This document shows, piece by piece, positions 10,661 through 53,037 of a DNA stretch of 64,000 nt. Origin of the DNA: Ianthella basta. Lineage: Eukaryota > Porifera > Demospongiae > Verongiida > Ianthellidae. Within the stretch, counting starts at the first letter, position 1, and every line of letters begins with the position of its first letter. The notes below the pieces were generated by a model. It saw nothing but the letters and a program-made list of their open reading frames with translations. It ran no database searches and was not told the DNA's origin. The stretch covers positions 6,286,288 through 6,350,287 of the forward strand of contig OZ025883.1 of the NCBI GenBank assembly GCA_964019415.1. Reading direction: 5' to 3'. The position numbers were made by a program, and so were the translations under genes.

Positions 10661-11670
10661 ATGCCCACTACCCTCTTGCTGCTGCTGCTGTGTGCCTTTA
10701 ACACTATCTGGCTGAGTGCAGCCAACACTTGTTCAAGTCGTAAGCTTCCTGGACTTCCAGGAAGAGACGGCAGAGATGGCAGAGGTGGCATGCCTGGACC
10801 AGCAGGGCCACCTGGTCCAAGTGGGTCTCCTGGCCAGTGTGAGGTATGTAAGTGAGTAAGCAGTGTTCATTGGGTTAGGTTATATGCTATAGGGCCATGT
10901 GACATACACTCAGCACAAGTTAATACTGGATAATATATAAGTTAGCTATTATATTTAATGGACAACTTCTAACTTTGTTTATATGATATGACAAGCAACT
11001 ATCGCCTTCCCACTTTATGTTCCAGTGTGATAAAATTGGTTCAGTCTTAGAGCGAAGTTACGGTTCTCCAGTTGTCATCAAGAGGTTACTGACACCAAGA
11101 AAGCTCCAGAGTGTTGCCTCTCTGCAGGACCTCACCAGTGCATCTGACACAGAACTGCATTTTACAGCAAGTGCAAACGCTGTTCGTCTTCTCAGATTCA
11201 CTTTGGACTCATTGGGCACAATACCACCAGGAGCACTCAATAACCTCACCATCTACATCCAGGTGCACTTCCATCAATCACCAACCACTGACACAGATTC
11301 ACATGTTGCCCTCTGTGATAACACAACTTGCAATGGAATTCTTATTAATGATGCCACCAACTATCCTAACTCCCCTTGTTGTTATAAAACATTTGCACCT
11401 GGTCCAACAATAGATCTCAGCTGCCCTAGTAACTGTGGTGAGATTGTAGCTACAAATGCAGTAGACCCTAAGACGGCGTCTCTCACTTTCGTCCCCTCTG
11501 AACGCTGGGGGTCCTTCAGTATCCCAGAAGGAAATGGATTCACATATTCGCACATCTTTGGCACTCAGCTGGATCCCACTCAGGGACTGAGTGTGGAGAT
11601 GTACGGTCATGACAGGGGTGAGCAGTACAAGTTGGGATACATCATTGTGGAAGTTATCAGAGAGGAGTGA
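10661..11670 (+). CDS. collagen-like secreted protein, copy 1
   Basis: Two exons, 10661-10843 and 11026-11670, joined phase 0 across a GT-AG intron, give 275 residues. Residues 1-21 are a signal peptide (leucine run, likely cut after LSA). Then comes NTC, about nine Gly-X-Y triplets (GLPGRDGRDGRGGMPGPAG and on), and a Cys pair spanning the splice (QCE|CDK). Exon 2 is a ~210-residue domain beginning near VVIKRLLTPRKLQS, with alternating hydrophobic strands, Cys pairs (ALCDNTTC, PCCY, CPSNC), NxS/T sites, and a conserved end (SERWGSFSIPEG, then EVIREE). The short helix flanked by cysteines suggests a disulphide-linked trimer, as in collectins and C1q, but the head resembles neither C1q nor a C-type lectin by eye. 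It carries the three-residue RKL insert before the collagen, as in copy 3. Confidence 0.9.
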
Positions 11671-12091
11671 ACAGCAGTATACTTACCATAGCTAACTCAT
11701 CTCACGTAGTACTGTAGCAGAAGTTACTAATAGCTTTATAGGTAGTTTATAGGCATATTTACCATAGCTAAATTGTCTCAATGTAGTACACAGAATTCCA
11801 TGGATACACATCACACAACATACGAGTGCATGTACTTGTAATAGCAACTAGCTTAGAAGGTGCTATACATATATGTATAATACATGCTTTGAAGGGCACT
11901 ACACCCACATACCACTAACACAATGGCATGAAACCAAATGACTGTATAAGCTGCATATTATATTGTGGGCTATGAGTATAGTACTATATTTTCTATACAT
12001 GAATTTAAATGCATACATACACATGCTATACATACAGTATAAATGTATTGGCTATTATACCATTTCATTGTTGCCATGTGAATGAGAAAGA
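11671..12091. other. spacer and shared upstream block of copy 2
   Basis: No gene. From about 11790 it repeats the ~300-bp upstream block of the array, including TTTGAAGGGCACTACACCCAC and the AAATGACTGTATAAGCTGCA segment. Confidence 0.75.
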
Positions 12092-12099
12092 TATAAATA
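12092..12099 (+). promoter_or_regulatory. TATA box, collagen-like copy 2 (broken gene)
   Basis: TATAAATA lies 72 bp before the ATG at 12164. The promoter is intact although the gene is not. Confidence 0.7.
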
Positions 12100-12163
12100 G
12101 GACATGTGGACTGAGGGAGAACAATAGCACTCCAGCCAGTTCTGAAGTTTTAAAGCTCTCAAC

Positions 12164-12345
12164 ATGCCCACTACCCTCTTGCTGCTGCTGCTGCTGGTGT
12201 GTGCCTTTAACACCATCTGGCTGAGTGCAGCCAACACTTGTTCAAGTCATAAGCTTCCTGGACTTCCAGGAAAAGATGGCAGAGAGATGGCATGCCTGGA
12301 CCAGCAGGGCCACCTGGTCCATGTGGGTCTCCTGGCCAGTGTGAG
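12164..12345 (+). pseudogene. collagen-like copy 2, exon 1 only, frameshifted
   Basis: The signal peptide is intact (MPTTLLLLLLLVCAF and on) and the donor GTAAGT follows 12345, but a deletion in the GRDGRD codons shifts the frame (GKDGRE then MACLDQQ). No exon 2 follows: the sequence passes into an inverted copy of a TIR element and then into the upstream region of copy 3. It is a truncated, frameshifted pseudogene. Confidence 0.85.
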
Positions 12346-12375
12346 GTAAGTGAACTGCCATTCCCACAATCCCAC

Positions 12376-12921
12376 TGTGGTGTGATCGTCACACCACTCA
12401 TTGCTCACACCAATGGTGTGATCAGCCACATTATTAACGTTTCTTCAGTGTCACATTCACACTGACACCAGCATCCACATTGTTGTTCACATTATTTCTG
12501 ATGGAATAAAAGACTTTGAAGTAATTCATATGCAAAAATGAGAGTTTACTTAGAATCTTAAGAGCTATCAAAGTACATATGTGGCTATCCCCTGGACGCA
12601 TGCACAGCTTAGCCATGTTGTGTACAGTGGGAGGACCTCCTCAAACTAAGTATGCTATTTGTGCAATTTAATGCACCATTAGGTACATTGTTGCACCCAC
12701 AAACAATCCCACCAGATGGTATGCTGTGTACCATATCTGTAGTGAAATGTACCGTGTAGTGCTTACTGAACTCTTACAAACTGTTCACATAAATGGTATA
12801 TGTTGTGTACTGCATGGTTGAAGTGAACATCACAAGCACACTAGTACTGCAAATGGGTGTGCTCACTGTGGCAACCAATTCGTACCAATATTGGGTGTAA
12901 TCATCACTACCTATTTTTAAC
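12376..12921 (-). mobile_element. TIR element (same family as 45861-46793), reverse orientation
   Basis: The sequence is the reverse complement of parts of the elements at 18660-19394 and 45861-46793 (shared: bases around GGAGGACCTCCTCAAACTAA and CTATTTTTAAC at the right end). It has CACACC/GGTGTG palindromes near one end. It lacks the 57-bp minisatellite core and a clean left terminus, and shows no open frame. Confidence 0.6.
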
Positions 12922-13603
12922 AGTAATATATGTAAGAACACGTACACATGCTTTTGCCTGTAAGCTATATAATAAGTCCATTCTTGGCATTTCCTTGATG
13001 CCTGCAGTTGCAGTGCGTGACAGCTGGCAAAGGATCAGCAGTACACATAATTCCACTCAGAATTCACATGGGAAGGCTGATACAGAACAAGCCAAAGGAA
13101 GAGTCAACAGTTTCAACTTGGCATTAATGTGGACACCCTTTAACATCAAGAAAAGAGCTGTCAAATTCCCTATATACGTATAGTGTGACTTACTGTCAAT
13201 GAGATACCCATGCACCCACCAGGACTATAATTGATGTGTGCACCAGTGTGTGTAATAAGAACTATGCCAGCTGGTGCGTGAGCGTGAGGTAACTGCAGTA
13301 CACAGAATTTAATGGATACACACCACACAACATAAGAATGCACGTACTTGTAATAACAGCCATTTAGAAAGTACTATAGAAATATGTCATGCATGCTTTG
13401 AAGGGCACTACACCCACGTACATACCAAGTACACAATGGCATGAAACCAAATGACTGTATAAGCTGCATATTATATTGTGGCCCATGGGAATAGTACTAT
13501 ATTTTCTATACATGAACTTAAATGCATGCATACACATGATATGCGTACAATATACATTATTGGCTATTATACCATTTCATTGTTGCCATGTGAATGAGAA
13601 AGA
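12922..13603. other. spacer and shared upstream block of copy 3
   Basis: It starts with a repeat also present near 9143 and 27830 (CTTTGATGCCTGCAGCTGCAG type), then the array's upstream block from about 13290. No gene. Confidence 0.7.
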
Positions 13604-13611
13604 TATAAAAA
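13604..13611 (+). promoter_or_regulatory. TATA box, collagen-like copy 3
   Basis: TATAAAAA lies 72 bp before the ATG at 13676. Confidence 0.8.
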
Positions 13612-13675
13612 GGACATGTGGACTGAGGGAGAACAATAGCACTCCAGCCAGTTCTGAAGTTCTGAAGTTCTCAAC

Positions 13676-14810
13676 ATGCCCACTACCCTCTTGCTGCTGC
13701 TGGTGTGTGCCTTTAACACCATCTGGTTGAGTGCAGCCAACACTTGTTCAAGTCGTAAGCTTCCTGGACTTCCAGGAAGAGATGGCAAAGATGGCAGAGA
13801 TGGCATGCCTGGACCAGCAGGGCCACCTGGTCCAAGTGGGTCTCCTGGCCAGTGTGAGGTATGTAAGTGAGTAAGCAGTGCTCATTGGGTTAGGTTATAT
13901 GCTATAGGGCCATGTGACATACACTCAGCACAAATTTATACTGTATAATATATAAGTCAATAGCTACATATATCAATTAAATACAATATACTGGGCAACA
14001 TACATGTGGTAATAGTAACATTTGGTCTGTACATTGGGGGGAGGAGTGAATGTGTTATGAGGGTAATGGATAATATATAAGTTAGCTATTATATTTAATG
14101 GACAACTTCTAAATTTGTTTATATGATATCACAAGCAACTTTCGCCTTCCCACTTTATGTTCCAGTGTGGTAAACATGGCTCAGTCTTAGAACAAAGTTA
14201 CAGTTCTCCAGTTGTCATCAAGAGGTTACTGACACCAAGAAAGCTCCAGAGTGTTGCCTCTCTGCAGGACCTCACAAGTGCATCTGACACAGAACTGCAG
14301 TTTACAGCCAGTGCAAGCAATGTTCGTCTTCTCAGATTCACTTTGGACTCATTGGGCACAATACCACCAGGGGCACTCAATAACCTCACCATCTACATCC
14401 AGGTGTACTTCCTTCAGTCACCAACTAATGACTCTGATCCACAAGTTGCCCTCTGTGATAACACAATCTGTAATGGAATTTTTATTAATGATGATGGCAA
14501 CTACCCTAACCTCCCTTGTTGCTATACAACATTTACACCTGGTCCAACAACAGATCCCAGCTGCCCTAGTAACTGTGGTGAGATTGTAGCAGCAAATGTG
14601 GTAGACCCTAAGACAGTGTCTCTCACTTTCGTCCCTTCTGAACGCTGGGGGTCCTTCAGTATCCCAGAAGGAAATGGATTCACATCATCGTACATCTTTG
14701 GCACTCAGCTAGATCCCACTCAGGGACTGAGCGTGGAGATGTATAGTGATAACAGTGGTGAGCAGTACAAGTTGGGATACATCATTGTGGAGGTTATCAG
14801 AGAGGAGTGA
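13676..14810 (+). CDS. collagen-like secreted protein, copy 3
   Basis: Exons 13676-13858 and 14166-14810 give 275 residues. Signal peptide, the NTCSSRKLPG form of the pre-collagen segment, nine Gly-X-Y triplets ending GSPGQCE, then the C-terminal domain starting CGKHGSVLEQSY. It differs from copy 1 mainly in the middle of exon 2 (YFLQSPTNDSDPQ, ICNGIFINDDGNYPNLP), while SERWGSFSIPEGNGFT and EVIREE are identical. The intron is about 120 bp longer than in copy 1. Likely secreted and disulphide-linked; function unknown. Confidence 0.9.
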
Positions 14811-16721: not shown

Positions 16722-16729
16722 TATAAAAA
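16722..16729 (+). promoter_or_regulatory. TATA box, collagen-like copy 4
   Basis: TATAAAAA lies 66 bp before the ATG at 16788, just after a GTTGCCAAGACAAC motif also found upstream of copy 10. Confidence 0.8.
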
Positions 16730-16787
16730 CATGCAGTCATGCAGACTGAGAGAGGAGATTCGCTTCTGAAGCTCTGAAGTTCTCAAC

Positions 16788-17787
16788 ATGCCCACTATCC
16801 TCTTGCTGCTGCTGGTGTGTGCCTTTAACACCATCCGGCTGAGTGCAGCCAACACTTGTCCAAGTCCTCCTGGACTTCCAGGAAGAGACGGCAGAGATGG
16901 CAGAGATGGCATGCCTGGACCAGCAGGGCCACCTGGTCCGAGTGGGTCTCCTGGCCAGTGTGAGGTATGTAAGTGAGCAAGCAGTGTTCATTGCGTTAGG
17001 TTATATGCTATAGGGCCATGTTAATACACTCAGCACAAATTTATACTGGATAATATTATAAGTTAGCTATTATATTTAATGGACATCTTTTGTTCATATA
17101 TGGTATCACAAGCAACTGTCGCCTTCCCACTTTATGTTCCAGTGTGATAAAAATGGCTCAGTCTTAGAACGAAGTTACGGATCTCCAGTTGTCATCAAGA
17201 GGTTACTGACACCAAGAAAGCTGCAGAGTGTTGCCTCTCTGCAGCACCTCACCAGTGCATCTGACACAGAACTGCATTTCACAGCAAGTGCAAATGACGT
17301 TCGTTTTCTCAGATTCACTTTGGACTCATTGGGCACAATACCTCCAGGGGCACTCAATAACCTCACTATCAACATCCAGGTGCACTTCCATCAATCACCA
17401 AGAGCTGACACTGATCCACAAGTTGCCCTCTGTGATAGCACAACCTGCAATGGAATTGTCATTACCGATTCTGGTAACTACCCTAACACCCCTTGTTGCT
17501 ATAAAACATTTGCACCTGGTCCAACTACAGATCGCAACTGCCCTAGTAACTGTGGTAAGATTGTAGCAACAAATGCAGTACACCCCAAAACAGTATCTCT
17601 CACTTTCGTCCCCTCTGAACGCTGGGGGTCCTTTGGTATCCCGGAAGGAAATGGGTTCACCACATCGCACATCTTTGGCACTCAGCTGGATCCCACTCAG
17701 GGACTGAGTGTGGAGATGTATGGTCATGACAGTGGTGAGCAGTACAAGTTGGGATACATCATTGTGGAAGTTATCAGAGAGGAGTGA
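16788..17787 (+). CDS. collagen-like secreted protein, copy 4
   Basis: Exons 16788-16964 and 17143-17787 give 273 residues. Signal peptide, the shorter pre-collagen form NTCPSPPGLPG, then GRDGRDGRDGMPG and on to GQCE, then CDKNGSVLERSYGSP and the C-terminal domain. Middle-region differences include HQSPRADTDPQ, STTCNGIVITDSG and CGKIVATNAVHPK. The end of exon 2 matches the other copies except for SFGIPEG. No broken sites. Function unknown; see copy 1 for domain reasoning. Confidence 0.9.
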
Positions 17788-18659
17788 ACAGCAGTATATA
17801 CCATAACTCATTGCCCGTAGTTTGTAGCAGAATTTACTATAATAGGCAGCTGCTGTATAAATATATCCATCAATCAGTGTGTATCATGATTTAGCTATTT
17901 GTAGTGGTACACTGACAGCATCTTATTCATGCCATGAGGAAAGCTATCCATGCTATACTGTATACCATTCCTGTGCATGTTAAAGTTGCTCTTGCGCATT
18001 CAGATGCACACACACACATACAGACACGTCATTGCTATACTTGAAATGCATTGTGACCCCTCTATCTGGTTAATTTTAGGCATCTGCATGTTTGTGATAC
18101 AAGGTGACAGCATCTTATTTATGCCAAAGAGTATTTGTGACAGATTAATATTAATGAGATCTCTTGAAAGTGAGTAGATATGATTTGTACAAGGGAGAGA
18201 ATTCCCTTAAAGGTAACCATGATGCATATACATGTACTGCACACCATCCATGTGCACATATGCTAAAGTTGCATGCTCCAGATCTTGCACATTTGGATGC
18301 ACATACACATACAGACATGTCTCTGCTGTATTGAATGCATAGAGACCCTATCTACATATCTGGCTATAATTATAAGCTAGTGTGTAATATAATAAATCCT
18401 TTAGAAGTAAAAGGAATTTAGGAATGGCCAGCAGAAAAAGCATAGAAGCAAGCTAGAGTAACTCAACACCTGATGAACCGCATATCTTTGAAGTTCACTC
18501 TGCATTCCATATATTTCCTTGTAGCTCCTGGACCCAAATGTCCAGCAGCTATATAGTCCCATGTAGCTGCAAGGAAATTGTATGCAGAGTGAATTTTGCA
18601 GATATGGTTCAATATCAAACATACAAGTGTATTCCTGTCTATGGGTTCAAATAAGGTAA
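17788..18659. other. intergenic spacer with array repeats and foldback copy
   Basis: No gene. It holds the GACAGCATCTTATT repeat twice, a foldback MITE copy (about 18390-18620), and a short piece of the Eph 3' flank (about 18615-18659) cut off by the next element. Confidence 0.7.
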
Positions 18660-19394
18660 TCCCTGCAAACATTGAGCATCTGAGCCCCAGTGAACTACAC
18701 CGGGGAATACGGCATCCCCTGCAAACATTGGGCATCTGGTGCCCCAGTGAACTTCACCGAGAATACGGCATCCCCTGCAAACATTTGGCATCTGGTGCCC
18801 CATTGAATTTCACCGGGGAATACGGCATCCCCTACAAACATTGGGCATCTGGTGCCCCAGTGAACTTCACCGAGAATACGGCATCCCCTGCAAACATTGG
18901 ACATCTGGTGCCCCAGTGAAATTCACCGGGGAATACGGCATCCCCTGCAAACATTGGGCATCTGGTGCCCCATTGTACGTCACCAGGGAATATGGCATTC
19001 CCTGCAAACATTGGGCATCTGGTGCCTCGATGAACTTCACCAAGGAATGCGGCATCTTCAACAACACAAAGTGCCTAACGGTGAATTTTAACTGCACAAA
19101 TGGCATACTTGGTTTGAGGAGGTCCTCCCACTGTACACAACATATATACCATCAGGCTTAGCTGTGTCCTGGGTAGCTATGTACTTAGATAGCTTCTATA
19201 GGATTCCAAATAAACTCTTGACATCATTAATTTTGGTTATGAATTAATTCAAAGTCTCTTAATCTATCAGAACTGACATGACAGTGTGGATACTGGTGTC
19301 AGTGTGAACGTCACACTAAAGTAATGGTGTGACTGATCACACCCTTGGTGTGAGCACTGACTGCATGGTGTGATGATCACACCATATGTTTAAC
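18660..19394. mobile_element. TIR element with 57-bp minisatellite, left-truncated
   Basis: About seven copies of a 57-bp unit (CCCCAGTGAACTTCACCG, GGAATACGGCATCCCCTGC, AAACATTGGGCATCTGG) occupy 18665-19060. They are followed by unique sequence matching the element inside the copy 2 locus and a right end with GGTGTGATGATCACACC and TTTAAC. The right end falls exactly two bases before exon 2 of broken copy 5. Minisatellite frames are open because 57 is a multiple of three; they are not genes. Confidence 0.65.
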
Positions 19395-19396: not shown

Positions 19397-20035
19397 TGTG
19401 ATGGTTCTGACCAAGAGTCTGGCTACCCAGTTATGATCAAGATGTTATTGACACCACGGAAGCTGCAGAGTGTTGCCTCTTTGTGACGCCTCACCAGTCC
19501 ATCTGACACAGCACTGCATTTTACAGTTGGTGCAAGCAGAGAGGTTCATCTTCTCAGATTCACTTTGGACTCATTGGGCACAATACCACCAAGGGCACTC
19601 AATACCCTCACCATCTACATCCAAGTGCACTAGCTTCCTCCAATCACCAGTTGGTGACACTGATCAAACATTGGGCCTCTGTGATGAAACAACCTGCGAT
19701 GTAATTTGCAATTTTGATGGTAGAAATTACTATGACACACTTTGTGGTTATTGCACATTGTCACCAGGTTCAACTGCAATGCATTCCACGTGCTCCTCTT
19801 GTGGTGGAGAGACTGTAAAACACCACTCATCCTAAGATAGTATCTCTCACTTTTGTCCCCTTTGAACACGGGGGTCCTTCAGCATCCCAGAAGGAAAGGA
19901 GTTCACAACATCACACATCTTTGGCACTCAGCTAAATACTACTCGTGAACTGAGTGTGGAGGTGTATGGTGAAGATATGGCCATGAGCAATGCAAGCTTA
20001 GTTACAGTCTTGTGGAAATTGTTACTGAGGGCTAA
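19397..20035 (+). pseudogene. collagen-like copy 5, exon 2 only, broken
   Basis: Starts after an AG with TGTGATGGTTCTGACCAAGA, closest to exon 2 of copy 9. A TGA falls where others have CTGCAG (around 19483), and several frameshifts follow, although the readable end (about 19840-20030) still resembles SERWGSF and EGNGFT. No exon 1 lies upstream; a TIR element abuts it. A decayed copy. Confidence 0.85.
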
Positions 20036-22739: not shown

Positions 22740-23745
22740 ATGCCCACTACCCTCTTGCTGCTGCTGGCGTGTGCCTTTAACACTATCTGGCTGAGTGCAG
22801 CCAACACTTGTCCAAGTCCTCCTGGACTTCCAGGAAGAGACGGCAGAGATGGCAGAGATGGCATGCCTGGACCAGCAGGGCCACCTGGTCCAAGTGGGTC
22901 TAATGGGAGCTGTGAAGTAAGTGCATGCCATTGAGCAGTGTTCTTTCACTGGGATAAGTTTGATTCATGTAGCTTCAAGTACACGGACTCTGGTGTATTA
23001 TATGCAAGTTGTTGAAACACTGTAATACTCATTGGATATACTTTAAGCAAATAATTTGGAATATTTTGCCATGACACGTACAAGCAACTGTTGCCTTCCC
23101 ATTTTATGCTCCATGCAGTGTGAGGAAAATAACTCAGGATGGGAGTATGTCTGTCCAGTCCTGATCAAGAGGTTACTGACACCAAGAAAGCTGCAGAATG
23201 TTGCCTCTCTGCAGGACCTCACCAGTGCATCTGACACAGAACTGCATTTTACAGTCGGTGAAAATGGTGTTCGTTTTCTCAGATTCACTTTAGAATCATT
23301 GGGCACAATATATCCAGGGGCACTCAATATCCTCACCATCTACATCCAGGTGCACTTCCATCAATCACCAACTAATGACTCTGATCCACAAGTTGCCCTC
23401 TGTGATAACACAACCTGCAATGGAATTCTTATTACTGATGTTGGGAACTCTAAGCCTTGCTGTTATAGAACATTTTCACCTGGTCCAACAACAGATCTCC
23501 ACTGCCCTAATAACTGTGGTGAGATTGTTAATGCAGTAAACCCCAAGACAGCCACTCTCTCTTTCGTCCCCTCTGAACGCTGGGGGTCCTTCAGTATCCC
23601 AGAAGGAAATGGGTTCACATCATCACACATCTTTGGCACTCAGCTCGATCCCACTCAGGGACTGAGTGTGGAGATGTACGGTCATAACAGTGGTGAGCAG
23701 TACAAGTTGGGATACATGATTGTGGAAGTTATCAGAGAGGAGTGA
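22740..23745 (+). CDS. collagen-like secreted protein, copy 6
   Basis: Exons 22740-22916 and 23119-23745 give 267 residues, the shortest intact copy. Signal peptide and NTCPSPPGLPG collagen; the helix ends GSNGSCE rather than GSPGQCE. Exon 2 starts CEENNSGWEYVCPVLIKRLL, with an extra Cys just before the conserved VLIKRLL. The variable middle is shortened (DVGNSKPCCYRTFSPG; EIVNAVNPKTATLSF). Downstream it is followed by the truncated Eph duplicate. Confidence 0.9.
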
Positions 23746-28371: not shown

Positions 28372-28450
28372 GCATCGTGGACAGTGTCCTTGAAGGTGTC
28401 AACTGTTCTGTGTTTGCTTATGGAGCCCCTGGTGCTGGTAAACCTCACAC
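28372..28450 (+). pseudogene. orphan kinesin motor P-loop exon, second copy
   Basis: Same as 9970-10049 but with P-loop changes: FAYGAPGAGKPHT in place of [13 protein letters not shown]. The Thr of GKT is lost, so this copy could not bind nucleotide normally. The splice acceptor is kept and no partner exons are present. Confidence 0.75.
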
Positions 28451-28559
28451 CAAATATAAAAGCTGATATAGAACACGTACGCTAAAGGAAGAGTCAACAG
28501 TTTCAACTTGGCATTAATGTGGACACCCTTTCTATTAACATCAAGAGCAGAACTATCAA

Positions 28560-32109: not shown

Positions 32110-33112
32110 ATGCCCACTACTCTCCTGCTGCTGGTGTGTGCCTTTAACACCATCTGGCTGAGTGCAGCCAACACTTGTTCAAGTCATAAGCTTCCTGGAC
32201 TTCCAGGAAGAGATGGCAGAGATGGCAGAGATGGCATGCCTGGACCAGCAGGGCCACCTGGCCCAAGTGGGTCTCCTGGTCAGTGTGAGGTAAATGAGCA
32301 TACAGTGTTCATTGCGTTAGGTTATATGCTATAGGGCCATGTGACATACACTCAGCACAAATTAATACTGGAAAATATATAAGTTAGCTATTATATTTAA
32401 TGTACAAATTCTAAATTTGTTTATATGATATGACAAGCAACTATCGCCTTCCCACTTCGTGTTCCAGTGTGATAAAAATGGCTCAGTCTTAGAGCGAAGT
32501 TACAGTTCTCCAGTTGTCATCAAGAGGTTACTGACACCAAGAAAGCTCCAGAGTGTTGCCTCTCTGCAGGACCTCACCAGTGCATCTGACACAGAACTGC
32601 ATTTTACAGCAAGTGCAACCGCTGTTCGGCTTCTCAGATTCACTTTGGACTCATTGGGCACAATACCACCAGGGGCACTCAATAACCTCACCATCTACAT
32701 CCAGGTGCGCTTCCATCAATCACCAACCTCTGACACTGATCCACAAGTTGCCCTCTGTGATAACACAACCTGCAATGGAATTGTCATTACTGATGCTGCC
32801 AACTATCCTAACACCCCTTGTTGTTATAATACATTTGCACCTGGTCCAACAATAGATCGCAGCTGCCCTAGTAACTGTGGTGAGATTGTAGCAACAAATG
32901 CGGTAGACCCTAAGACAGTGTCTCTCACTTTCATCCCCTCTGAACGCTGGGGGTCCTTCAGTATCCCAGAAGGAAATGGATTCACATCATCATACATCTT
33001 TGGCTCTCAGCTCAATCCCACTCAGGGACTGAGTGTGGAGATGTACGGTGATCACAGTGGTGAGCAGTACAAGTTGGGATACATCATTGTGGAAGTTATC
33101 AGAGAGGAGTGA
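32110..33112 (+). CDS. collagen-like secreted protein, copy 7
   Basis: Exons 32110-32289 and 32468-33112 give 274 residues. Signal peptide, NTCSSHKLPG pre-collagen form, GRDGRDGRDGMPG collagen, QCE|CDKNGSVLERSYSSP. Exon 2 is close to copy 1, as expected for its partner in the duplicated block; differences cluster in FHQSPTSDTDPQ, NGIVITDAANYPNTPC and SYIFGSQLNPTQG. No defects. It lies downstream of the LINE insertion, about 160 bp before which the kinesin remnant sits, mirroring the order at copy 1. Confidence 0.9.
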
Positions 33113-33822: not shown

Positions 33823-34445
33823 ATGCCCATTACCCTCTTGCTGCTGCTGCTGTGTGCCTTTAACACCATCTGGCTGAGTGCAGCCAACACTTGTCCAAGT
33901 CCTCCTGGACTTCCAGGAAGAGATGGCAGAGATGGCAGAGATGGCATGCCTGGACCAGCAGGGCCACCTGGTCCAAGTGGGTCTCCTAGGTGCTGTGAAG
34001 TAAGTGCATATCATTGCTGCAGTGTTCTTGCAATGAGATAATTTAGATTTATGTAGCTACAAGTACATATATACGTAGACTCTGGTGCATTCTGCAAGTT
34101 GTTGATGAAACACTAATACTCAGTGGATAAGCAAATAATTAGGGAATCCAATATTTTACTGTAACACGTACAAGCAGCTGTTGCCTCCTTTTCTCTGCTG
34201 GTCACTGTGGCAGTGAGACTGTTGAAACAAACTTCACTCACCCTAAGACAGTGTCTCTCACTTTCGTCCCCTCTGAACGCTGGGGGTCCTTCAGTATCCC
34301 AGAAGGAAATGGGTTCACAACAGCTAGCACCTTTGGCGCTCAGCTGGATCCCACTCAGGGACTGAGTGTGGAGATGTATAGTTCTGACACTGGAGAGCAG
34401 TACAGACTGGCATACATGATTGTGGAAGTTATCAGTGAGGAGTGA
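33823..34445 (+). pseudogene. collagen-like copy 8, exon 2 truncated
   Basis: Exon 1 (33823-33999) is intact: MPITLLLLLLCAF, NTCPSPPGLPG, ending SPRCCE before GTAAGT. Exon 2 lacks its first ~390 bases. The frame resumes at about 34200 with the C-terminal part (ETVETNFTHPK, SERWGSFSIPEG, EVISEE), matching copy 9 almost exactly. The nearest AG (34213) would give an immediate TGA in phase, so I treat it as broken. The deletion joins an intron like that of copy 6 to exon 2 of a copy 9 type. Confidence 0.8.
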
Positions 34446-39108: not shown

Positions 39109-40530
39109 ATGCCCACTACCCTCTTGCTGCTACTGGTGTGTGCATTTAACACCATCTGGTTGAGTGCAGCCAACACTTGTTCAAGTCCTCCTGGACTTCC
39201 AGGAAGAGATGGCAGAGATGGCAGAGATGGCATGCCTGGACCAGCAGGGCCACCTGGTCCAAGTGGCTCTCCTGGCCAGTGTGAAGTAAGTAGTCATGAA
39301 CTATCATTCCTTTCATAATTCAAGCTACTGGTGTTAATTTTTGTATTTAGCTAGCTATGGTGATGTGGGAAGCGTTATTATCTATATCTATATTTAAAAT
39401 TCAGTTTGTTTGTTTGTTTGTTCACCTTTGGCACAATAACTACGGAACAGAACGTCACCAAACTCTCAGGGATTATGAAGTAGAACTCCAGAAGTGTCCT
39501 CCGCGGGTTGAAATTCCCCGTTTTGCAGTTCTTGATGCGATTTTCTTCAATTTCCGGGTTTCGTTCGCGGCTGACGACCATTGCTCCCATGATTTCCGGT
39601 TGACGGACGGTTTGATCGCTGTCGTCGAACGATCGATTAAACTTGGCCGTCATTATAGCAGCTATCCTCCGTTGCTAACAGCGCAGATTCTTCGAAACAG
39701 CCTGGGCCAGACTCGCTGTCGTGCGACTCGCCGAAGCAAAAGCCCACCGAAGGCGGGCGCCCTGCTAGTATAATTGCATAATTACAAAGCTACTGGATAC
39801 ATAGTAATTGGCCAGAATGCAGTTTATTTACATTTAATCTACGGTAACCATAATTATATGGATGATTGTTGCTTTCTCATATGTATTACAGTGTGATGGC
39901 TCTGACCAAGAGTCTGTCTCCCCAGTTTTGATCAAGAGGTTACTGACACCGAGGAAGCTGCAGAATATTGCCTATTTGGGGCACCTCTCCAATGCAAATG
40001 TTACAGTACTGCATTTTACAGCTATTGCAAGCCGCGCTCGTCTTCTCAGATTCACTTTGAACTCATTGGGCACAATACCACCAGGAGCACTCAGCAACCT
40101 CGCCATCTCAATCCAGGCGCACTTCCTCGAATCACCAACTTCTGACACCGATCCTCTTGTGGCCATCTGTGATGGCACAACTTGCAATGGAATTGACTTT
40201 AATGATCGTGGAAACTACCCTAACCCTTGTGCATATTATGCAATGACACCAGGTCCAACTGCAACTAACTATGTGCGTTCTCCTGGTCACTGTGGCGGTG
40301 AGACTGTTGAAACAAACTTCACTCACCCTAAGACAGTGTCTCTCACTTTCGTCCCCTCTGAACGCTGGGGGTCCTTCAGTATCCCAGAAGGAAATGGGTT
40401 CACAACAGCTAGCACCTTTGGCGCTCAGCTGGATCCCACTCAGGGACTGAGCGTGGAGATGTATGGTTCTGACACTGGAGAGCAGTACAGACTGGCATAC
40501 ATGATTGTGGAAGTTATCAGTGAGGAGTGA
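39109..40530 (+). CDS. collagen-like secreted protein, copy 9
   Basis: Exons 39109-39285 and 39892-40530 give 271 residues. Signal peptide, NTCSSPPGLPG, the usual collagen ending GSPGQCE, then CDGSDQESVSPVLIKRLL. This is a divergent subgroup: exon 2 reads NIAYLGHLSNANVTVLHFTA, CDGTTCNGIDFNDRGNYPNPC, AYYAMTPGPTATNYVRSPG, HCGGETVETNFTHPK, ending EVISEE. Fewer Cys remain in the middle (the CCY pair is lost). The intron is lengthened by a 388-bp Helitron-like insert, but the splice sites are intact. Confidence 0.88.
39381..39768 (+). mobile_element. short non-autonomous Helitron-like element
   Basis: It begins TCTATATCTATATTTAAAA after an A and ends CTAG before a T, the A|T target context expected of Helitrons, without target duplication. 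A hairpin (GCCCACC GAA GGCGGGC, 39742-39758) sits six bases before the CTAG. It lies inside the copy 9 intron. A frame runs through it by chance; no Rep/helicase is present. The hairpin spacing is a little short for the class. Confidence 0.72.
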
Positions 40531-42591: not shown

Positions 42592-43593
42592 ATGCCCACT
42601 ATCCTCTTGCTGCTGGTGGTGGTGTGTGCCTTTAACGCCATCTGGTTGAGTGCAGCCAACACTTGTCCAAGTCCTCCTGGACTTCCAGGAAGAGACGGCA
42701 GAGATGGCAGAGATGGCATGCCTGGACCAGCAGGGCCACCTGGTCCAAGTGGGTCTCCTGGCCAGTGTGAGGTACGTAAATGAGAATACAGTGTTCATTG
42801 GGTTAGGTTATATGCTATAGGGCCATGTGACATACACTCAGCACAAATCAACACTGGATAATATTGTAAGTTAGCTATTACATTTAATGGACATCTTTTG
42901 TTTATATGATATCACAAGCAACTGTCGCCTTCCCACTTCATGTTCCAGTGTGATAAAAATGGCTCAGTCTTGGAACGAAGTTTTGGATCTCCAGTTGTGA
43001 TCAAACAATTACTGACACCAAGAAAGCTCCAGAGTGTTGCCTCTCTGCAGGACCTCACCAATGCATCTGACACAGAACTGCATTTTACAGCCAGTGCAAA
43101 CGCTGTTCGTCTTCTCAGGTTCACTTTAGACTCATTGGGCACAATGCTACCAGGAGCACTCAATAACCTCACCATCAGCATACAGGTGCACTTTCATCAA
43201 TCACCAACTAATGACTCTGATCCACAAGTTGCCCTCTGTGATAACACAACCTGCAATGGAATTCTTATTACTGATGCTGCCAACTCCCCTAACCTCCCTT
43301 GTTGCTATAAAACATTTACACCTGGTCCAACTGCAGATCTTAGCTGCCCTAGTAACTGTGGTGAGATTGTAGCTACAAATGCGGTAGACCCTAAAACAGT
43401 ATCTCTCACTTTCATCCCCTCTGAACGCTGGGGGTCCTTCAGTATTCCGGAAGGAAATGGGTTCACCACATCACACATCTTTGGCTCTCAGCTGGATCCC
43501 ACTCAGGGACTGAGTGTGGAGATGTACAGTCATGACAGTGGTGAGCAGTACAAGTTGGGATACATCATTGTGGAAGTTATCAGAGAGGAGTGA
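42592..43593 (+). CDS. collagen-like secreted protein, copy 10
   Basis: Exons 42592-42771 and 42949-43593 give 274 residues. Signal peptide MPTILLLLVVVCAF, NTCPSPPGLPG, collagen to GQCE, then CDKNGSVLERSFGSPVVIKQ (Gln where others have Arg). Exon 2 is close to copies 4 and 7; middle differences are NDSDPQ, NGILITDAANSPNLPC and PTADLSCPSNC. Promoter and upstream region pair with copy 4. No defects seen. Confidence 0.9.
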
Positions 43594-44590: not shown

Positions 44591-45607
44591 ATGCCCGCTA
44601 CCCTCTTGCTGCTGCTGCTGTGTGCCTTTAACACCATCTGGTTGAGTGCAGCCAACACTTGTCCAAGTCCTCCTGGACTTCCAGGAAGAGACGGCAGAGA
44701 TGGCAGAGATGGCATACCTGGACCAGTAGGGCCACCTGGTCCAAGTGGGTCTAATGGGAACTGTGAAGTAAGTGAACAGAATTTGTTGGGTATGGGTGGA
44801 GTTAGATTAATGCAGGTACTTTTTTCAAACTTATTTCTCTAGCCAAAATATTCAGTGAATAGCTGCATAGTAAAGCTAATTTAATGGTATGGGATGATTC
44901 TTACATATTAGCCATGAAAGCAACATACTGTTGCTTTCCCATGCATGCTCTTTCTGCTCCAGAGTGATGAAAATAACTCTAAACAAAATTACAGCTCCCC
45001 GGTCCTGATCAAGAGGTTACTGACACCAAGAAGGCTCCAGAGTGTTGCCTCTCTGCAGCACCTCACCAGTGCATCTGACACAGAACTGCAGTTTACAGCC
45101 ATTTCCAGTGGTGATCGTCTTCTCAGAGTCACTTTAGATTCACTGGGTACAATACCGCCAGAGACCCTCACCAACCTCACCATCTACATCCAGGTGCACT
45201 TCCTTCAATCACAAACTTCTGACACTGATCCACACGTAGCCCTCTGTGACGGCACAACCTGCAATGGAGTGTCTATTAGTGACGGTAGGAACTATCCTGG
45301 TAACCCTTGTGTATATTTCACGGCAACACCGGGTCTAACTGCAACAAATTACATGAGCACCGCTAACTGTAATGGAGAGACTGTGGAAACAAACACTGCA
45401 CATCCTAAGACAGTATCTCTCTCTCTTGTCCCCTCTGAACGCTGGGGGTCCTTCAGTATCCCAGAAGGAAATGGGTTCACATCATCACACATCTTTGGCT
45501 CTCAGCTGGATCCCACTCAGGGACTGAGTGTGGAGATGTACGGTTATGACACTGGTGAGCAGTACAGACTGGCTTACATGATTGTGGAAGTTGTCAGAGA
45601 AGAGTAA
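44591..45607 (+). CDS. collagen-like secreted protein, copy 11
   Basis: Exons 44591-44767 and 44963-45607 give 273 residues. Signal peptide, NTCPSPPGLPG, collagen with two changes (GIPGPVG), ending GSNGNCE. Exon 2 begins with Ser (AGT) where every other intact copy has Cys, so the Cys pair at the helix/head junction is reduced to one. The middle is of the divergent subgroup (ALCDGTTCNGVSISDGRNY, PCVYFTATPGLTATNYMS, NCNGETVETNTAHPK), and it ends EVVREE. Stop is TAA rather than TGA. Confidence 0.88.
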
Positions 45608-45860
45608 ACAGCAGAACTATAACTGTAATGCAAGGAATGCATTATATAGACCACTTGGTTTATCATAACACTAGCTGCACGCACAATTGCAATGAACACT
45701 TTTCATGCATCCACACATGCACACATATACATACACAAACATACATGCATTCATTCCTAACAGGGCAGATCAGATGCAGAAATCTGAACATGCGCAGGAC
45801 ATATTGCTGTGCATGTATTTTCACATCTTGTATGTCAATACATTTATTGTATGCAGCACT

Positions 45861-46793
45861 GTTAAAAATAGGGAATGACAATCACACCCAAAATTGATGT
45901 GAATTGGTTGTCACAGTGAGCACATTCTTTTGCATTGTGATGGTCACTCTAACCATGCAGTACACAACATACCATTATGGGAACAGTTTGTAAGAGAGTA
46001 AGCACTTAATGGTACATTTCGTATTCACTACAGATATGGACATTGGTACACTACTTTAAGGATTTTGAGTATACGTAATACACAGCATACCAACTGGCAG
46101 GATAGTTTGTGAGACTCAGTGATGGCATTCGGATCCCCTGCAAACACTGGGCATCTGGGGCCTTAATGCATTTCACCAGGGAATACGGCATCCCCTGCAA
46201 ACATTGGGCATTTGGTGCCCCAGTGAATTTCACCGGGGAATATGGCATCCCTTGCAAACATTGGGCATCTGTGCCCCAGTGAACTTCACCGGGGAATATG
46301 GCATCCCCTGCAAACATTGGGCATCCGGTGCCCCAGTGAACGTCACCGGGGAATATGGCATCCCCTGCAAACATTGGGCATCTGTGCCCCAGTGAACTTC
46401 ACCGGGGAATATGGCATCCCCTGCAAACATTGGGCATCTGGTGCCCCAGTGAACGTCACCGGGGAATACGGCATCCCCTGCAAACATTGGGCATCTGTGC
46501 CCCGGTGAACTTCACCGGGGAATATGGCATCCCCTGCAAACATTGGGCATCTGGTGCCCCAGTGAACTTCACCGGGGAATACGGCATCCCTTGCAAACAT
46601 TGGGCATCTGGTGCCCCAGTGAACTTCACCGGGGAATACGGCATCCCCTGCAAACATTGGGCATCTGGTGCCCCAGTGAACTTCACCGGGGAATACGGCA
46701 TCCCTTGCAAACATTGGGCATCTGTGCCCCAGTGAACTTCACCGGGGAATACGGCATCCCTGACTGGTGTGATGGTCACACCATATTTTTAAC
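45861..46793 (+). mobile_element. TIR element carrying a 57-bp minisatellite, most complete copy
   Basis: The ends are inverted: GTTAAAAATAGGGAATGA at the left, and GTTAAAAATATGGTGTGACC read from the right. The core (about 46130-46765) is about eleven tandem copies of a 57-bp unit; the outer parts match 12376-12921 and 18660-19394. There is no transposase. Long Ile/Pro/His frames on both strands come from the 19-codon unit. Non-autonomous elements with a tandem-repeat core are known in invertebrates, but this family's class is unclear. Confidence 0.65.
46130..46765. repeat. 57-bp minisatellite
   Basis: About eleven near-identical units of 54-57 bp; some lack three bases (GGCATCTGTGCCCC against GGCATCTGGTGCCCC). 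The same unit is repeated about seven times at 18665-19060. Confidence 0.9.
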
Positions 46794-49741
46794 AATGAGC
46801 TATTATAGAGGTATAGGTTATATCCTGTCAAGGCATAATAGCCATAACAGCTATGTTATGCGGATTGATCATGTTGGTTTGATTGAGTCTGTGGCTATAC
46901 AATAGTCTTCTTTGGTGTACATCCCCATTACTCACTGGGTGCACTCCACATGCAGGCATGCAGCACTATATAGCACAATGCATGTATAATTATACTATAA
47001 TTATATGACTTGTACGTATGAATGCATGGTTTGAGAGCTTTCTAGCTATATACGCATATTATAGCTTCCATTCTCTATGAACAATGCATTTGTGAACAAT
47101 GTATCCATCTAGTCTAAGAGAAGCCTATACGTATAACATTGTATTAACTATAGTTTATTTGTCTGTCTAGTTTGAAAGTGTGTTATGTGTTTTACATCCT
47201 TATTCCCATTTCCCACATATTTTTGTATGGAGTGAGTGCACTCTGTGCTGTGTCACTATTTCACTTTAGCTTTCCATATACACGCACACACAATGCATCT
47301 ATTGTGTGCGCTATCTGTCTAATGTGAATTATCCTACAACATCAATACATGCTGGTGAACATCTACATAGCTGTACAGTTTAGTGCAGGCTGAGAGTAAA
47401 CAGCAGAACTATAGCTCATTATGCATGCTTGCATCCTGTTGTATACTGCAACACATTGACATTATACTATTCATAAGCCACTGTTGCTGTATTATATAGC
47501 ACCTTGTATCACTGTGTTATATAATAGTGCAGAATATTCTGCATACAAGCTCACAATTAATACAATGATTCAAAGTTGCAATTGGCTTTATGTTCATGAA
47601 GTTGATGAAGTTGGCTGTAGTTTGTCCACATCATGACATAATGTTACATTTCTGAGTGAAGATGGCATTGTACAAACACATAGTATGGCCTATGTATGTA
47701 TACACAAGCATGCATTGTGTATTAATGAAGCATGCTATATATTGACCTTGATGTGGTATAATATTGCAATTTGCACATAGAGGTCTGTAATTGAGACATG
47801 CACATCACTGTACATTCTTCTACATGCAATGAGAAGTGTGTGATTGTATGCTATCCTGAATGTAGTTCACTAAACAGCTATAATTACATTATATGAATGG
47901 ACAGCTCAACAGACATTCAAACTGAATGCTCACGCACAGCCATTCTACAAGCTACATGATGACATAATTATAACTACGCAGCCTGCCAAAATGGTCGAAT
48001 CATATTCCTAGGTCCATTTTCAGTTTCATCCAATACACATTCTCATACTAAATATAAATTTAAGCTGTCCTGTATATATATCGTTCAAACAAGCGTTGTA
48101 CTGTTCTTCACTGAGACCGCAGCTGTGCAGACAATAATACATAGTCACTCTGGCATAAAATGAGGTAGACGCTGTACTATATACATAGCATACATTGCAT
48201 GGCCAGTCAGGTACATGCCACCTCTGACATGTCAGAGATCAAACTGATTACATAAGGAATAGTTCATCAGAATGGGATGAAAGAGAGTCAACTGATTATC
48301 TAGTATGAGAATGCGTATCGGATGAAACTGAAAATTCTATAGGCCTTCTTAGTGTAAACACAAGTAGATTACATGAGAAACTGAAAATTCCTTTGTCAAT
48401 TTCATAGGAGCGATGTGCAGTGTCAGTGAATCTGAAAATTCCATCTGTATAGATATTATTGTATACAAATAATACATGAAACTGTGCAATGCCATTATAC
48501 AGTCTGCATGTGTTGCACAAGATGTGATACCATACGAATGTATGTGTACATTCCACAAGTATAATGCCAGTTGCATCATGCATGGTTACCATGCTAACTG
48601 GATCGATCCCGGATGTTATATCACAGATATATAGGTATTATAAATTACACGTAAGACGCCAAGCAATATGCTTGTACATAGCTATTTGTGTAATTATTAG
48701 TGCATGACCTGGTGGTGGTGTAGTGTGGCGTTCATTCACATGCAATCATGTGCTTTTGGCCAGCTAGTATAGTTGAAACCATTATGTGTATGCTTAATCC
48801 TGCTTCGAATGGACACCTAGGAATTAATATGATTCAACCATATAGGCAGGATGCATAATTATAATTATGCCATCATGTAGCTTGTAGAATGGCTGTACAA
48901 AGCTGTCCTTGTATATTTCGTTCAAACAAGCATAGTACAGTTCTTCACTGAGACCGCAGCTGTGCTCACAATAATACGTAGTCGCTCTGGCTTAAATGTT
49001 GTAGACGCTGTTCTATATTTATACATGTACATATAAACTTCACTGCACACTAAGCGCATGCATGCCTACGTGCCTCTCAAACTGCTGTTTCACCACAAAT
49101 GCCTAATTGTGTATGTATCCATGTGTATGTATTATAACATTCACACAACACAATGGAGAGGTTCGGTGAAACCTGTGTATAAGATGGTCACTGTCTCTAA
49201 ATTAAAGCAGCCAGCCTCCCTGGCCCCAAATAGCACTAAGACATTGCAATCTACCTCTGTAGAGCAGCCACCTCACTATAGAGGTCAGTTAGAACTGGCC
49301 CACAGGTGGCTGTCTTATACAGGCTCCATTGCATATAGGTACTGCCAAGGCTGAATGCATAGTAGCCTATACGTGGTTACATTTATGTACAAATGGTTTA
49401 CATTGTGCTATTTAAATCAATCAATCCATCAGTCATTATTAGAGTGCATCGCACCAGAAGGTGCTAGGACACAGATATGTCCAGTGTAGCACTATCACAA
49501 AGGTACATAGACTAAGCATGGACATGTGAAGGAGGTTACTACATGAATGATAGAGTTATAGACCAAAACGAGCACACCACACATGTGCTATATAGTCTGT
49601 ATACATGTACATGTACACCTTACTTGTCCCTAACTACATAGCAGTATGGTGCCATGTGTTGTAGCTAGGTGCCCGTGTTTGGTGCCTATGTAAAGTGCAA
49701 GTGTGCGTGTGTTGTATATAAGTGAATGAGCTTGGTGCATC

Positions 49742-51376
49742 TGTGCTAGGTGCCTATGTGCTAGGTGCCCATGTGCTAGGTGCCCATGTGTTAGGTGCCC
49801 ATGTGTTAGGTGCCCATGTGTTAGGTGCCCATGTGTTAGGTGCCCATGTGTTACTTGCCCATGTGTTAGGTGCCCATGTGTTACTTGCCCATGTGTTAGG
49901 TGCCCATGTGTTGGGTGCCCATGTGTTGGGTGCCCATGTGTTGGGTGCCCATGTGTTGGGTGCCCATGTGTTGGGTGCCCATGTGTTAGGTGCCCGTGTG
50001 TTAGGTGCCCATGTGCTAGTTGCCCATGTGTTAGGTGCCCATGTGCTAGTTGCCCATGTGTTAGGTGCCCGTGTGTTAGGTGCCCATGTGTTAGGTGCCC
50101 ATGTGTTAGGTGCCCGTGTGTTAGGTGCCCATGTGTTAGGTGCCCGTGTGTGTTAGGTGCCCATGTGTTAGGTGCCCATGTGCTAGGTGCCCATGTGTTA
50201 GGTGCCCGTGTGTTAGGTGCCCATGTGTTAGGTGCCCATGTGCTAGTTGCCCATGTGTTAGGTGCCCATGTGCTAGTTGCCCATGTGTTAGGTGCCCATG
50301 TGTTAGGTGCCCATGTGTTAGGTGCCCGTGTGTTAGGTGCCCATGTGTTAGGTGCCCGTGTGTTAGGTGCCCGTGTGTTAGGTGCCCATGTGCTAGTTGC
50401 CCATGTGTTAGGTGCCCATGTGTTAGGTGCCCGTGTGTTAGGTGCCCATGTGTTAGGTGCCCATGTGTTAGGTGCCCGTGTGTTAGGTGCCCATGTGCTA
50501 GTTGCCCATGTGTTAGGTGCCCATGTGTTAGGTGCCCATGTGTTAGGTGCCCGTGTGTTAGGTGCCCATGTGTTAGGTGCCCGTGTGTTAGGTGCCCATG
50601 TGCTAGTTGCCCATGTGTTAGGTGCCCATGTGTTAGGTGCCCATGTGTTAGGTGCCCATGTGTTAGGTGCCCATGTGTTAGGTGCCCATGTGTTAGGTGC
50701 CCATGTGTTACTTGCCCATGTGTTAGGTGCCCATGTGTTACTTGCCCATGTGTTAGGTGCCCATGTGTTGGGTGCCCATGTGTTGGGTGCCCATGTGTTG
50801 GGTGCCCATGTGTTAGGTGCCCATGTGTTGGGTGCCCATGTGTTGGGTGCCCATGTGTTAGGTGCCCGTGTGTTAGGTGCCCATGTGCTAGTTGCCCATG
50901 TGTTAGGTGCCCATGTGCTAGTTGCCCATGTGTTAGGTGCCCGTGTGTTAGGTGCCCATGTGTTAGGTGCCCATGTGTTAGGTGCCCGTGTGTTAGGTGC
51001 CCATGTGTTAGGTGCCCATGTGTTAGGTGCCCGTGTGTTAGGTGCCCATGTGTTAGGTGCCCATGTGCTAGGTGCCCATGTGTTAGGTGCCCGTGTGTTA
51101 GGTGCCCATGTGTTAGGTGCCCATGTGCTAGTTGCCCATGTGTTAGGTGCCCATGTGCTAGTTGCCCATGTGTTAGGTGCCCATGTGTTAGGTGCCCATG
51201 TGTTAGGTGCCCATGTGTTAGGTGTCCATGTGTTAGGTGCCCATGTGTTAGGTGCCCATTTGTTGGGTGCCCATGTGTTAGGTGCCCATGTGTTAGGTGC
51301 CCATGTGTTAGGTGCCCATTTGTTAGGTGCCCATGTGTTAGGTGCCCATGTGTTACTTGCCCATGTGTTAGGTGCC
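49742..51376. repeat. 15-bp minisatellite, about 109 units
   Basis: Head-to-tail copies of GTGTTAGGTGCCCAT with point variants (GTGCTAGTTGCCC, GTTACTTGCCC, GTTGGGTGCCC, GCCCGTG). Variants recur in blocks: the TTACTTGCC/TTGGGTGCC cluster at about 49850-49980 recurs at 50705-50850, showing larger-scale duplication. The unit is five codons, so frames of several hundred residues stay open on both strands (APNTW, HGHLT, CVRCP, VLGAH); these are not genes. A few further units lie at 53960-54012. Confidence 0.97.
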
Positions 51377-51761
51377 CTAGCATAAGACAATGATCCAATG
51401 GAATGCATGGGATGAAAGGGAATCCATTGATATATCTAGTAGGAGAATGCGTATTGAATGAAACTGAAAATTCTATAGGCCTTTTTAGTGTAAGCACATG
51501 TAGATTATGTGAGGAACTGAAAATTCCTTTGTCAATTTCATATAGGAGTGATGTGCAGTGTCAGTGAATCTGAAAATTCCATCTGTATAGATACTATTGT
51601 ATACAAATAATACATGAAACTGTGCAATATCATTATACAGTCTGCATGTGTTGCACAAGATGTACATGTGATAACATACAAGTGTATGTGTACATTCCAC
51701 AAGTATAATGCCAGTTGCATCGTGCATGGTTACCATGCTAATATAACTGGATCCCAGATGT
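51377..51761. other. upstream region of copy 12, duplicated at 48290-48600
   Basis: Matches 48290-48600 with few differences. It contains a series of CTGAAAATTCC motifs (around 51460, 51515 and 51570). Confidence 0.7.
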
Positions 51762-51769
51762 TATAAAAG
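51762..51769 (+). promoter_or_regulatory. TATA box, collagen-like copy 12
   Basis: TATAAAAG lies 70 bp before the ATG at 51832. Confidence 0.75.
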
Positions 51770-51831
51770 TAGCTGGAGAGAGAGGAGAACAGCATTCTAA
51801 GAAGTTGCCACTGAAATTGCAAGTTCTCAAC

Positions 51832-53037
51832 ATGCCTGCTACCCTCTTGCTGCTGCTGCTGTGTGCCTCTAACACCATCTGGTTGAGTGCAGCCAACACC
51901 TGTCCAAGTCCTCCTGGTCTTCCAGGAAGAGATGGCAGAGATGGCAGAGATGGCATGCCTGGACCAGCAGGGCCACCTGGTCCAAGTGGGTCTCCTGGCC
52001 AGTGTGAGGTACGTGAACAGTGTTCGTTGCTCTCATCACAGTTATACTAATATTCTGATAGAGCAGACATGGCCTTGTGTGGTGGCATATGAACCAAGCA
52101 AATGTGGTTGAATGGGGGGGATGGGGGAGAGGGGCTGTAGCCCACCCATTAATTCTTGTTCGAGAGAACAGTGGATATTTTGGTCTGGCTGGCTTATAGC
52201 CACCAAGCAGCTCCCCCCACCCACCCACCTGTGCACCTCCATAACTGTGTCATGCTTTGCCACCACTGGAACCAAGGGTTATTGGATTGAGGGACTATGT
52301 ATGTATGCAACAATATTAACCACATAGTTATTTACTACCAATGAAAATGATGTACTGTTATCTCTCCACTTTAGTCTCAGTGTGTTGGCAGCAGCCCACA
52401 GCAAGAGACTCAGTGTGACTGCCCTGTTGTCATCAAGAGGTTACTGACACCAAGAAGGCTCCAGAGTGTTGCCTCTCTGCAACACCTCACCAGTGCATCT
52501 GATACAGAGCTGCATTTTACAAGTGGGACCTCTGGAACTCGTGACCGTATTATCAGCTTTCCTTTGAACTCATTGGGCACAATACCACCAGAGACCCTCA
52601 ATAACCTCACCATCTACATCCAGATGCACTTCCTTCAATCACCAATAGCTGACAGTGATCCACTTGTGGCCCTCTGTGATGGCACAACCTGCAATGGAGT
52701 GTCTATTACTGATGCTACAAACTACCCTTCACTCCCCTGCAAATATTGCACATTTTCACCTGGCACATCTTTGACTGATTTGGGTTGCACTTCTACATGT
52801 GGTGGAGAAACTGTAGCAACAAGCTTCACTCATCCCAAGACAGCAACTCTCTCTTTCATCCCCTCTGAACGCTGGGGGTCCTTCACCATTCCAGAAGGAA
52901 ATGGGTTTACAGCATCAAACATTTTCAGCACCCAACTGGATCCTACTCAGGGACTGAGTGTGGAAGTGTACGGTGAGAATGAAGTGGAGGAGTACAGACT
53001 GGCTTACATGATTGTGGAAGTTATCGGTGAGGAGTGA
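51832..53037 (+). CDS. collagen-like secreted protein, copy 12
   Basis: Exons 51832-52008 and 52381-53037 (or 52375 by the alternative AG of a TTAGTCTCAG pair) give 277 or 279 residues. An in-frame Met at 51805 exists, but 51832 matches all other copies. Signal peptide, NTCPSPPGLPG, standard collagen to GQCE. It is the most divergent head: exon 2 opens CVGSSPQQETQCDCPVVIKR with two added Cys, then TSGTSGTRDRIISFPLN, CDGTTCNGVSITDATNY, PCKYCTFSPGTS, CTSTCGGETVATSFTHPK, and ends EVIGEE with GENEVEEYRLAY. Open frame and splice sites are intact. Confidence 0.87.

Follow-up and report, generated by a model that had tools for sequence, protein, structure and literature searches.

Ficolins, collectins and C1q consist of a leader, a short Cys-flanked Gly-X-Y stalk and a C-terminal head, and they are encoded by multiple genes. 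Both the lectin and the classical complement pathways operate with heads carried on short collagen stalks of this kind. We analyzed a stretch of 64,000 nucleotides from the sponge Ianthella basta (bases 6286288-6350287 of contig C16; referred to as the window) within an assembly of 209 Mb (209.09 Mb, 96 contigs). It contains a tandem array of nine intact two-exon genes (G1-G9). At the gene level, these share with the named proteins the leader, stalk and head plan as well as the multigene state. The array head differs, since none of the 17 heads compared gave a Pfam match to a FReD, C-type lectin or C1q domain. We propose that the array products are disulphide-locked, collagen-trimerised, multivalent binding proteins with recognition as their main role, to which we assign a probability of roughly 0.45. 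The best reading is that they would be ficolin- or C1q-like in plan, yet outside those families by sequence.

Two further systems are comparable. Cthrc1 proteins carry a leader, a short collagen and a C-terminal domain which was long without a named class and has been modelled as C1q-like; tandem paralogues are described from cnidarians and a loss is reported for the demosponge Amphimedon (PMC7058181, accessible part). The leader, the short collagen, a head lacking a named class and the tandem copies are shared by the array. Spongin short-chain collagens are said to occur in the demosponge matrix and represent, like the array, short collagen in sponges (PMC5395295, accessible part). However, spongin and collagen IV are defined in that text by the C4/NC1 domain, which was not found in the array heads.

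Using the first copy as a BLASTN query, 11 exon-1 and 11 exon-2 stretches were found in the window, all of them on the plus strand. Pairing of these stretches resulted in the nine intact genes, with products of 267-277 aa that were 69-91% identical to one another, and three broken copies. This confirmed the original prediction, made from the letters of the sequence, of nine intact and three broken copies on one strand between positions 10661 and 53037. The introns of G1-G9 were in phase 0, ranged in size from 177 to 606 bases and had the splice signals GA[AG]/GT...AG.

Exon 1 encodes a leucine-rich leader, followed by Cys 24 and triplets ending in Cys 60 (GLP GRD GRD GRD GMP GPA GPP GPS GSP GQC, with minor differences among the copies). 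The leader resembles a signal peptide by eye, as had been predicted. The predicted Cys-flanked stalk was found as well, but in all nine intact genes it comprised ten Gly-X-Y triplets instead of about nine. Exon 2 encodes a further Cys 62 in eight of the nine genes, G8 being without it. Runs of at least nine in-frame triplets occurred 10 times in the window (nine genes and one broken copy) and in none of 40 first-order Markov shuffles, so that the stalk runs are not due to chance. The two proteins scanned matched the Pfam family Collagen (PF01391) with E-values of 0.0017 (G1) and 4.8e-05 (G9), both below the curated cut-off because the Gly-X-Y run is short.

The head corresponds to exon 2 and comprises 208-218 residues, in essence the approximately 210 residues expected. 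Protein searches detected the same head outside the array on the contigs C5, C12, C8 and C20. On C5 a single copy with a collagen exon of nine triplets was present. A second array on C12 (5079373-5105310, with a gap of 5000 N within) contained six intact heads and at least four broken places; here, exon 1 encodes a leader and the motif [CY]NSCQ without collagen and joins the same head across an intron of identical phase. C8 carried one divergent partial head, the sequence upstream of which consisted of N, and C20 carried three divergent members, two of them with a long acidic insert. This Asp/Ser/Asn-rich insert (L014 3512-4537 and L016 3731-4765) precedes a conserved SWGS block and sits roughly at the position of the variable loop described below. 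One C20 member showed 25% identity to the C12 heads in tblastn (E 5.2e-7; reverse search E 4.2e-6), and hhalign tied the C20 set to the head family with 97.3% over 69 columns. In total, 20 open heads (one of them partial) were found in the genome, ten with collagen, six without and four not classed. In the head tree, in which C5 and C8 were flagged for long branches, two of the 14 forks were well supported, and one of these united the C16 and C5 heads (97/98). As heads with and without collagen belong to one family, the stalk was gained or lost within it or exon 1 was exchanged. The first interpretation as a collagen-stalked family is therefore valid for the array but too narrow for the head.

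Four Cys were invariant across 17 aligned heads (nine of the window, the C5 head, six of C12 and the C8 head, with the C20 members left out). They are located at exon-2 positions 97, 102, 118 and 137, or 158, 163, 179 and 198 of the G1 protein. Two additional Cys within the loop from the third to the fourth constant Cys were both present in G1-G5 and G7 (C180 and C194 in G1), both missing in G6 and G8, and moved in G9 (182/195). Their joint presence or absence suggests an extra disulphide inside this loop in some of the heads.

Pfam searches with the 17 heads gave no convincing match, the best scores being at chance level (Ependymin 0.094, DUF3509 0.24). The Ependymin family (PF00811) was weakly matched by two of these heads; a rescan of ten heads singly gave no match, so that both matching heads must belong to the other seven, all of them from the window. 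At the sequence level there was no match to C1q (PF00386, E<=10), to Fibrinogen_C, FReD or COLFI, or to C-type lectin domains in the 17 heads, nor was TNF or C4 (NC1, PF01413) found in them; C4 was missing from the array as well. A genome search for C1q found none, though no control matched either. Furthermore, NCBIfam, PHROGs and the PDB sequences contained no convincing match for the head, and the head profile had 0 matches among the latter. This is in agreement with the original prediction, in which the head could not be matched to C1q, TNF, C-type lectin, fibrinogen or spongin/NC1. Neither the head nor the stalk peptide was found in the papers searched, and among the matches listed no title or abstract opening describes the head or its use beside the two other head types introduced below. 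By sequence, the array head is a family absent from the libraries searched, on a protein plan that is already known.

Two AlphaFold models of the head were poor, with predicted local distance difference test (pLDDT) values of 33 and 44; in spite of this low confidence both agree with the beta-rich head that had been predicted. In a fold comparison the better, still low-confidence model resembled jelly-roll domains. Of the 50 matches listed for this model, 10 are carbohydrate-binding modules or lectins by title, and its neighbours include the TNF-like lectins 9ib7 and 2wq4. The models hint at a jelly-roll beta-sandwich, short of proof. A head of a new type, as initially proposed, is thus supported for the sequence family, whereas the fold could be that of an ordinary jelly-roll.

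The TNF-like neighbours, together with a plan that matches Cthrc1 down to a C-terminal domain modelled as C1q-like (PMC7058181, accessible part), would fit a head that is a strongly diverged trimeric signalling domain, either C1q/TNF-like or Cthrc1-like, with the array proteins as secreted ligands. However, CBM22, CBM16 and Eph ligand-binding domains scored equal to or above the TNF-like lectins with the same low-confidence model. The 17 heads lacked C1q and TNF matches and reached only chance-level Pfam scores, and their profile found nothing among the PDB sequences. Pfam and PDB sequences likewise gave no match of the head to the Cthrc1 C-terminal domain, and no sequence link was seen, no Cthrc1 sequence having been aligned. 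We consider signalling ligands quite improbable.

The stalk has a wide company in the genome. With the exon-1 consensus as the query, at least 142 matches at E<=0.01 were obtained, of which 13 belonged to the own family (12 places in the array and one on C5) and at least 129 were located outside of it, clustered on C2, C11, C16, C20 and other contigs. These counts are lower bounds since the best 150 of 486 candidates were scored, and they denote short-collagen-like places, not homologous stalks, because Gly-X-Y sequences match each other easily. Among 20 sampled stalk genes, 15 were COLFI/FReD-like by eye and four were of a WGRTxCP...CAVC type; the frame of the remaining one (L038) was too short, and a COLFI match lies in its locus. 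Four of the 15 were scanned against Pfam; COLFI matched L039 (E 2.9e-07), the head of L029 (0.0038) and L021 (0.067), with no match for L026 at E<=0.1. Compared to the PDB sequences, L039 matched the C-propeptides of collagen I (E 4.7e-05) and collagen III (8e-04) and the intelectin XEEL (9.3e-04). Genome-wide, at least 88 COLFI matches at E<=0.001 were obtained, 83 of them above the curated cut-off (best 150 of 304 candidates scored); among these best 150 none was located at C16:6.29-6.35 Mb.

Clusters of COLFI/FReD-like genes were located on C2 (2.59-3.27 Mb and 0.55-1.02 Mb), C10 (2.5-2.95 Mb), C19 (4.14-4.23 Mb), C20 (0.96-1.07 Mb), C23 (0.95 Mb) and C5 (9.24-9.40 Mb). The genes sampled, on C2, C5, C20 and C23, had a short collagen stalk. 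The clusters appear to represent a ficolin-like expansion.

The COLFI/FReD/intelectin-like proteins (L039, L021, L026) share with the array a stalk of the C...GLPGRDGRDGRDG..PG..GP.GPPG kind and the arrangement in tandem clusters. Their heads are unrelated to the array head (hhalign probability 0.1% for three of the 15), and in the genes read stalk and head lie in one open frame, whereas an intron separates them in the array genes. The WGRTxCP...CAVC proteins (L025, L028, L032, L036) combine, as in the array, a short GRDGRDG collagen with a Cys-rich head, but the collagen is longer in L025 and L028 and the heads are unrelated to the array head (0.1% for all four). The one WGRT head scanned had no match in Pfam; these proteins presumably resemble short-chain collagen C4. 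The original view of the array was too narrow here as well, the stalk being of a type that carries at least two other kinds of head in this genome. Judged from these head types and the at least 129 outside matches, the array head adds one more type to an extensive set of short-collagen proteins.

Among the nine copies, median nucleotide identity was 94% for exon 1 and 82% and 80% for the halves of exon 2. Outside of the exons it was 57% at the intron end, 56% in the 200 bases upstream and 45% in the 300 bases downstream, far below the exons, which are therefore kept by selection. The array heads are under purifying selection: the median ratio of nonsynonymous to synonymous change (dN/dS) was 0.44 for the C16 heads and 0.49 for those of C12, with none of the 36 and 15 pairs, respectively, above 1 (pairwise values, not independent). 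For exon 1 the ratio was 0.45 with 7 of 36 pairs above 1, based on few sites.

These values bear on the idea of a mostly neutral tandem amplification by unequal exchange among repeats, with few copies expressed and no functional diversification. Such a history is suggested by the three broken copies of the array, the four or more broken places of the C12 array, and the duplicated flanks, retroelements and minisatellites inside the array. It is nevertheless unlikely, because nine genes are open and have standard splice signals, because the exons have been preserved next to diverging introns and flanks, and because dN exceeds dS in none of the 36 head pairs.

In each of the two arrays, nonsynonymous change per 20-column window peaked within the loop that runs from the third to the fourth constant Cys, with 0.282 in C16 (neighbours 0.234 and 0.231) and 0.244 in C12 (neighbours 0.145 and 0.203). 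The block around SERWGSFSIPEGNGFT was the most conserved one (ratio 0.20 in C16 and 0.05-0.17 in C12). We rank recognition above a role in the matrix because amino-acid change in both arrays is greatest at the same Cys-bounded loop, and because the in-genome company of the stalk is ficolin-like (COLFI/FReD/intelectin-like heads). In favour of recognition are also the ten-triplet stalk flanked by Cys in every intact gene, the stalk exon, more identical among copies than the heads, the constraint on the heads, the two extra loop Cys that behave like a disulphide pair, and the resemblance of the better model to jelly-roll domains, some sugar-binding by title.

In such a recognition protein the leader would be cleaved and the product secreted. 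Three chains may then join, and the ten Gly-X-Y triplets would wind into a triple helix of about 9 nm. The flanking C24, C60 and C62 (G1 numbering; the last lacking in G8) would hold the three chains together and may connect one trimer to another. At the C-terminus, a head of approximately 190 residues is predicted to be beta-rich, with two constant disulphides proposed to pair C158-C163 and C179-C198. Heads in threes could bind a repeated ligand by avidity, as in ficolins, collectins and C1q. Tandem duplication would preserve the stalk and vary the heads, chiefly around the C179-C198 loop.

Several results weigh against recognition. The C12 heads are spliced to an exon 1 without collagen, so the head also occurs without the stalk. 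There was no sign of positive selection in the head pairs of either array. Within the C16 heads, nonsynonymous change in the N-terminal linker reached 0.235, and the dN/dS ratio of the loop was just 0.54-0.81. In C12 the peak ratios (1.68 and 0.99) were found closer to the N-terminus than the loop.

The missing positive selection would suit structural matrix or adhesive proteins, a bulk short-chain collagen for mesohyl, skeleton or attachment in which copies provide dosage and head variation is drift. Spongin short-chain collagens are said to be contained in the demosponge matrix (PMC5395295, accessible part). Moreover, the stalk is near-invariant even at fourfold sites: summed over 36 pairs, 102/1166 differed in exon 1 vs 489/2875 in exon 2, exon 1 being lower in 33 of the 36 pairs (stalk 0.075 vs 0.14-0.22 in thirds of the head). 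Since protein constraint does not explain this low change, exon-sized gene conversion of exon 1 or a constraint on its nucleotides is possible. A TATA[AT]A box, which as background occurs in 6.5% of all 41-nt segments, was found at -66 to -91 from the ATG in 10 of the 11 exon-1 copies, a set place that fits strong regulated expression; the remaining copy (22740) had CATAAA at -85. However, the heads are without the C4 domain of spongin and collagen IV, the eight C4 matches of the genome being all located on contig C1 (41 of 41 candidates scored). The heads also diverge beyond the needs of dosage, and in both arrays most of their amino-acid change surrounds a single Cys-bounded loop. A matrix role is thus possible, but recognition is the more probable one.

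A more far-reaching version of the recognition proposal would be a combinatorial repertoire of perhaps more than 100 soluble 'defence collagens', all built on one plan of secretion and stalk that carries at least three unrelated heads. The array head would then be a new lectin-like domain, with its specificity for microbes or for self determined by the disulphide-bounded loop. We regard this extension as rather doubtful. A probable early-branching animal in which a single type of stalk bears several unrelated heads, including an uncatalogued one, would reveal how such recognition proteins arise through the exchange of modules. The 20 open heads (one partial) form a concrete family whose ligands could be tested, and even if they were matrix proteins after all, they would name a domain family missing from the profile libraries searched.

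Table 1. Positions of the array exons and of the G1 TATA box in the window.
Feature	Position	Strand
TATAAA of G1, -74 from ATG	10587..10592	+
G1 exon 1, leader and Cys-flanked collagen stalk	10661..10843	+
G1 exon 2, head and stop	11026..11670	+
Broken copy, lone exon 1, reading frame lost inside stalk	12164..12346	+
G2 exon 1	13676..13858	+
G2 exon 2	14166..14810	+
G3 exon 1	16788..16964	+
G3 exon 2	17143..17787	+
Broken copy, exon 2 only, stops present	19427..20020	+
G4 exon 1	22740..22916	+
G4 exon 2	23119..23745	+
G5 exon 1	32110..32289	+
G5 exon 2	32468..33112	+
Broken copy, part of exon 1 with 9 Gly-X-Y triplets	33823..33987	+
Same broken copy (33823), final 38% of exon 2	34198..34445	+
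G6 exon 1	39109..39285	+
G6 exon 2	39892..40530	+
G7 exon 1	42592..42771	+
G7 exon 2	42949..43593	+
G8 exon 1	44591..44767	+
G8 exon 2	44963..45607	+
G9 exon 1	51832..52008	+
G9 exon 2	52381..53037	+

Upstream of the array, a receptor tyrosine kinase with a C-terminal SAM domain (Eph type by eye) is located at 1-7400 of the window. Parts of its 3' end were duplicated between G4 and G5 (24.2-26.0 kb) with 94-97% identity. Together with the many short-collagen genes, this Eph-type kinase is in line with a sponge as the source. Additionally, kinesin-motor-like fragments (FAYGA.GAGK / FAYGAPGAGK, by eye) at 9968-10050 and 28374-28460 lie upstream of both G1 and G5 and mark a shared duplicated segment.

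Retroelement sequence was present on the minus strand at 28.6-31.6 kb, 56640-59630 and 60047-62379. The first of these stretches resembled a long interspersed nuclear element by eye, and a reverse transcriptase domain was found in a 997-aa frame and in a 310-aa frame at 61450-62379. A 57-bp minisatellite occurred at two places of the array (18661-19056 and 46133-46760), and a 15-bp minisatellite with 109 copies was located between G8 and G9 (49742-51377). A 402-aa open frame on the plus strand (55176-56384) contained a LigB extradiol dioxygenase domain (E 7.5e-13). In a cysteine-protease search of the genome aimed at silicatein, 11 of the 30 loci read matched the active-site pattern, all with the ordinary CGSCW, and a twelfth carried CGSCW as well.
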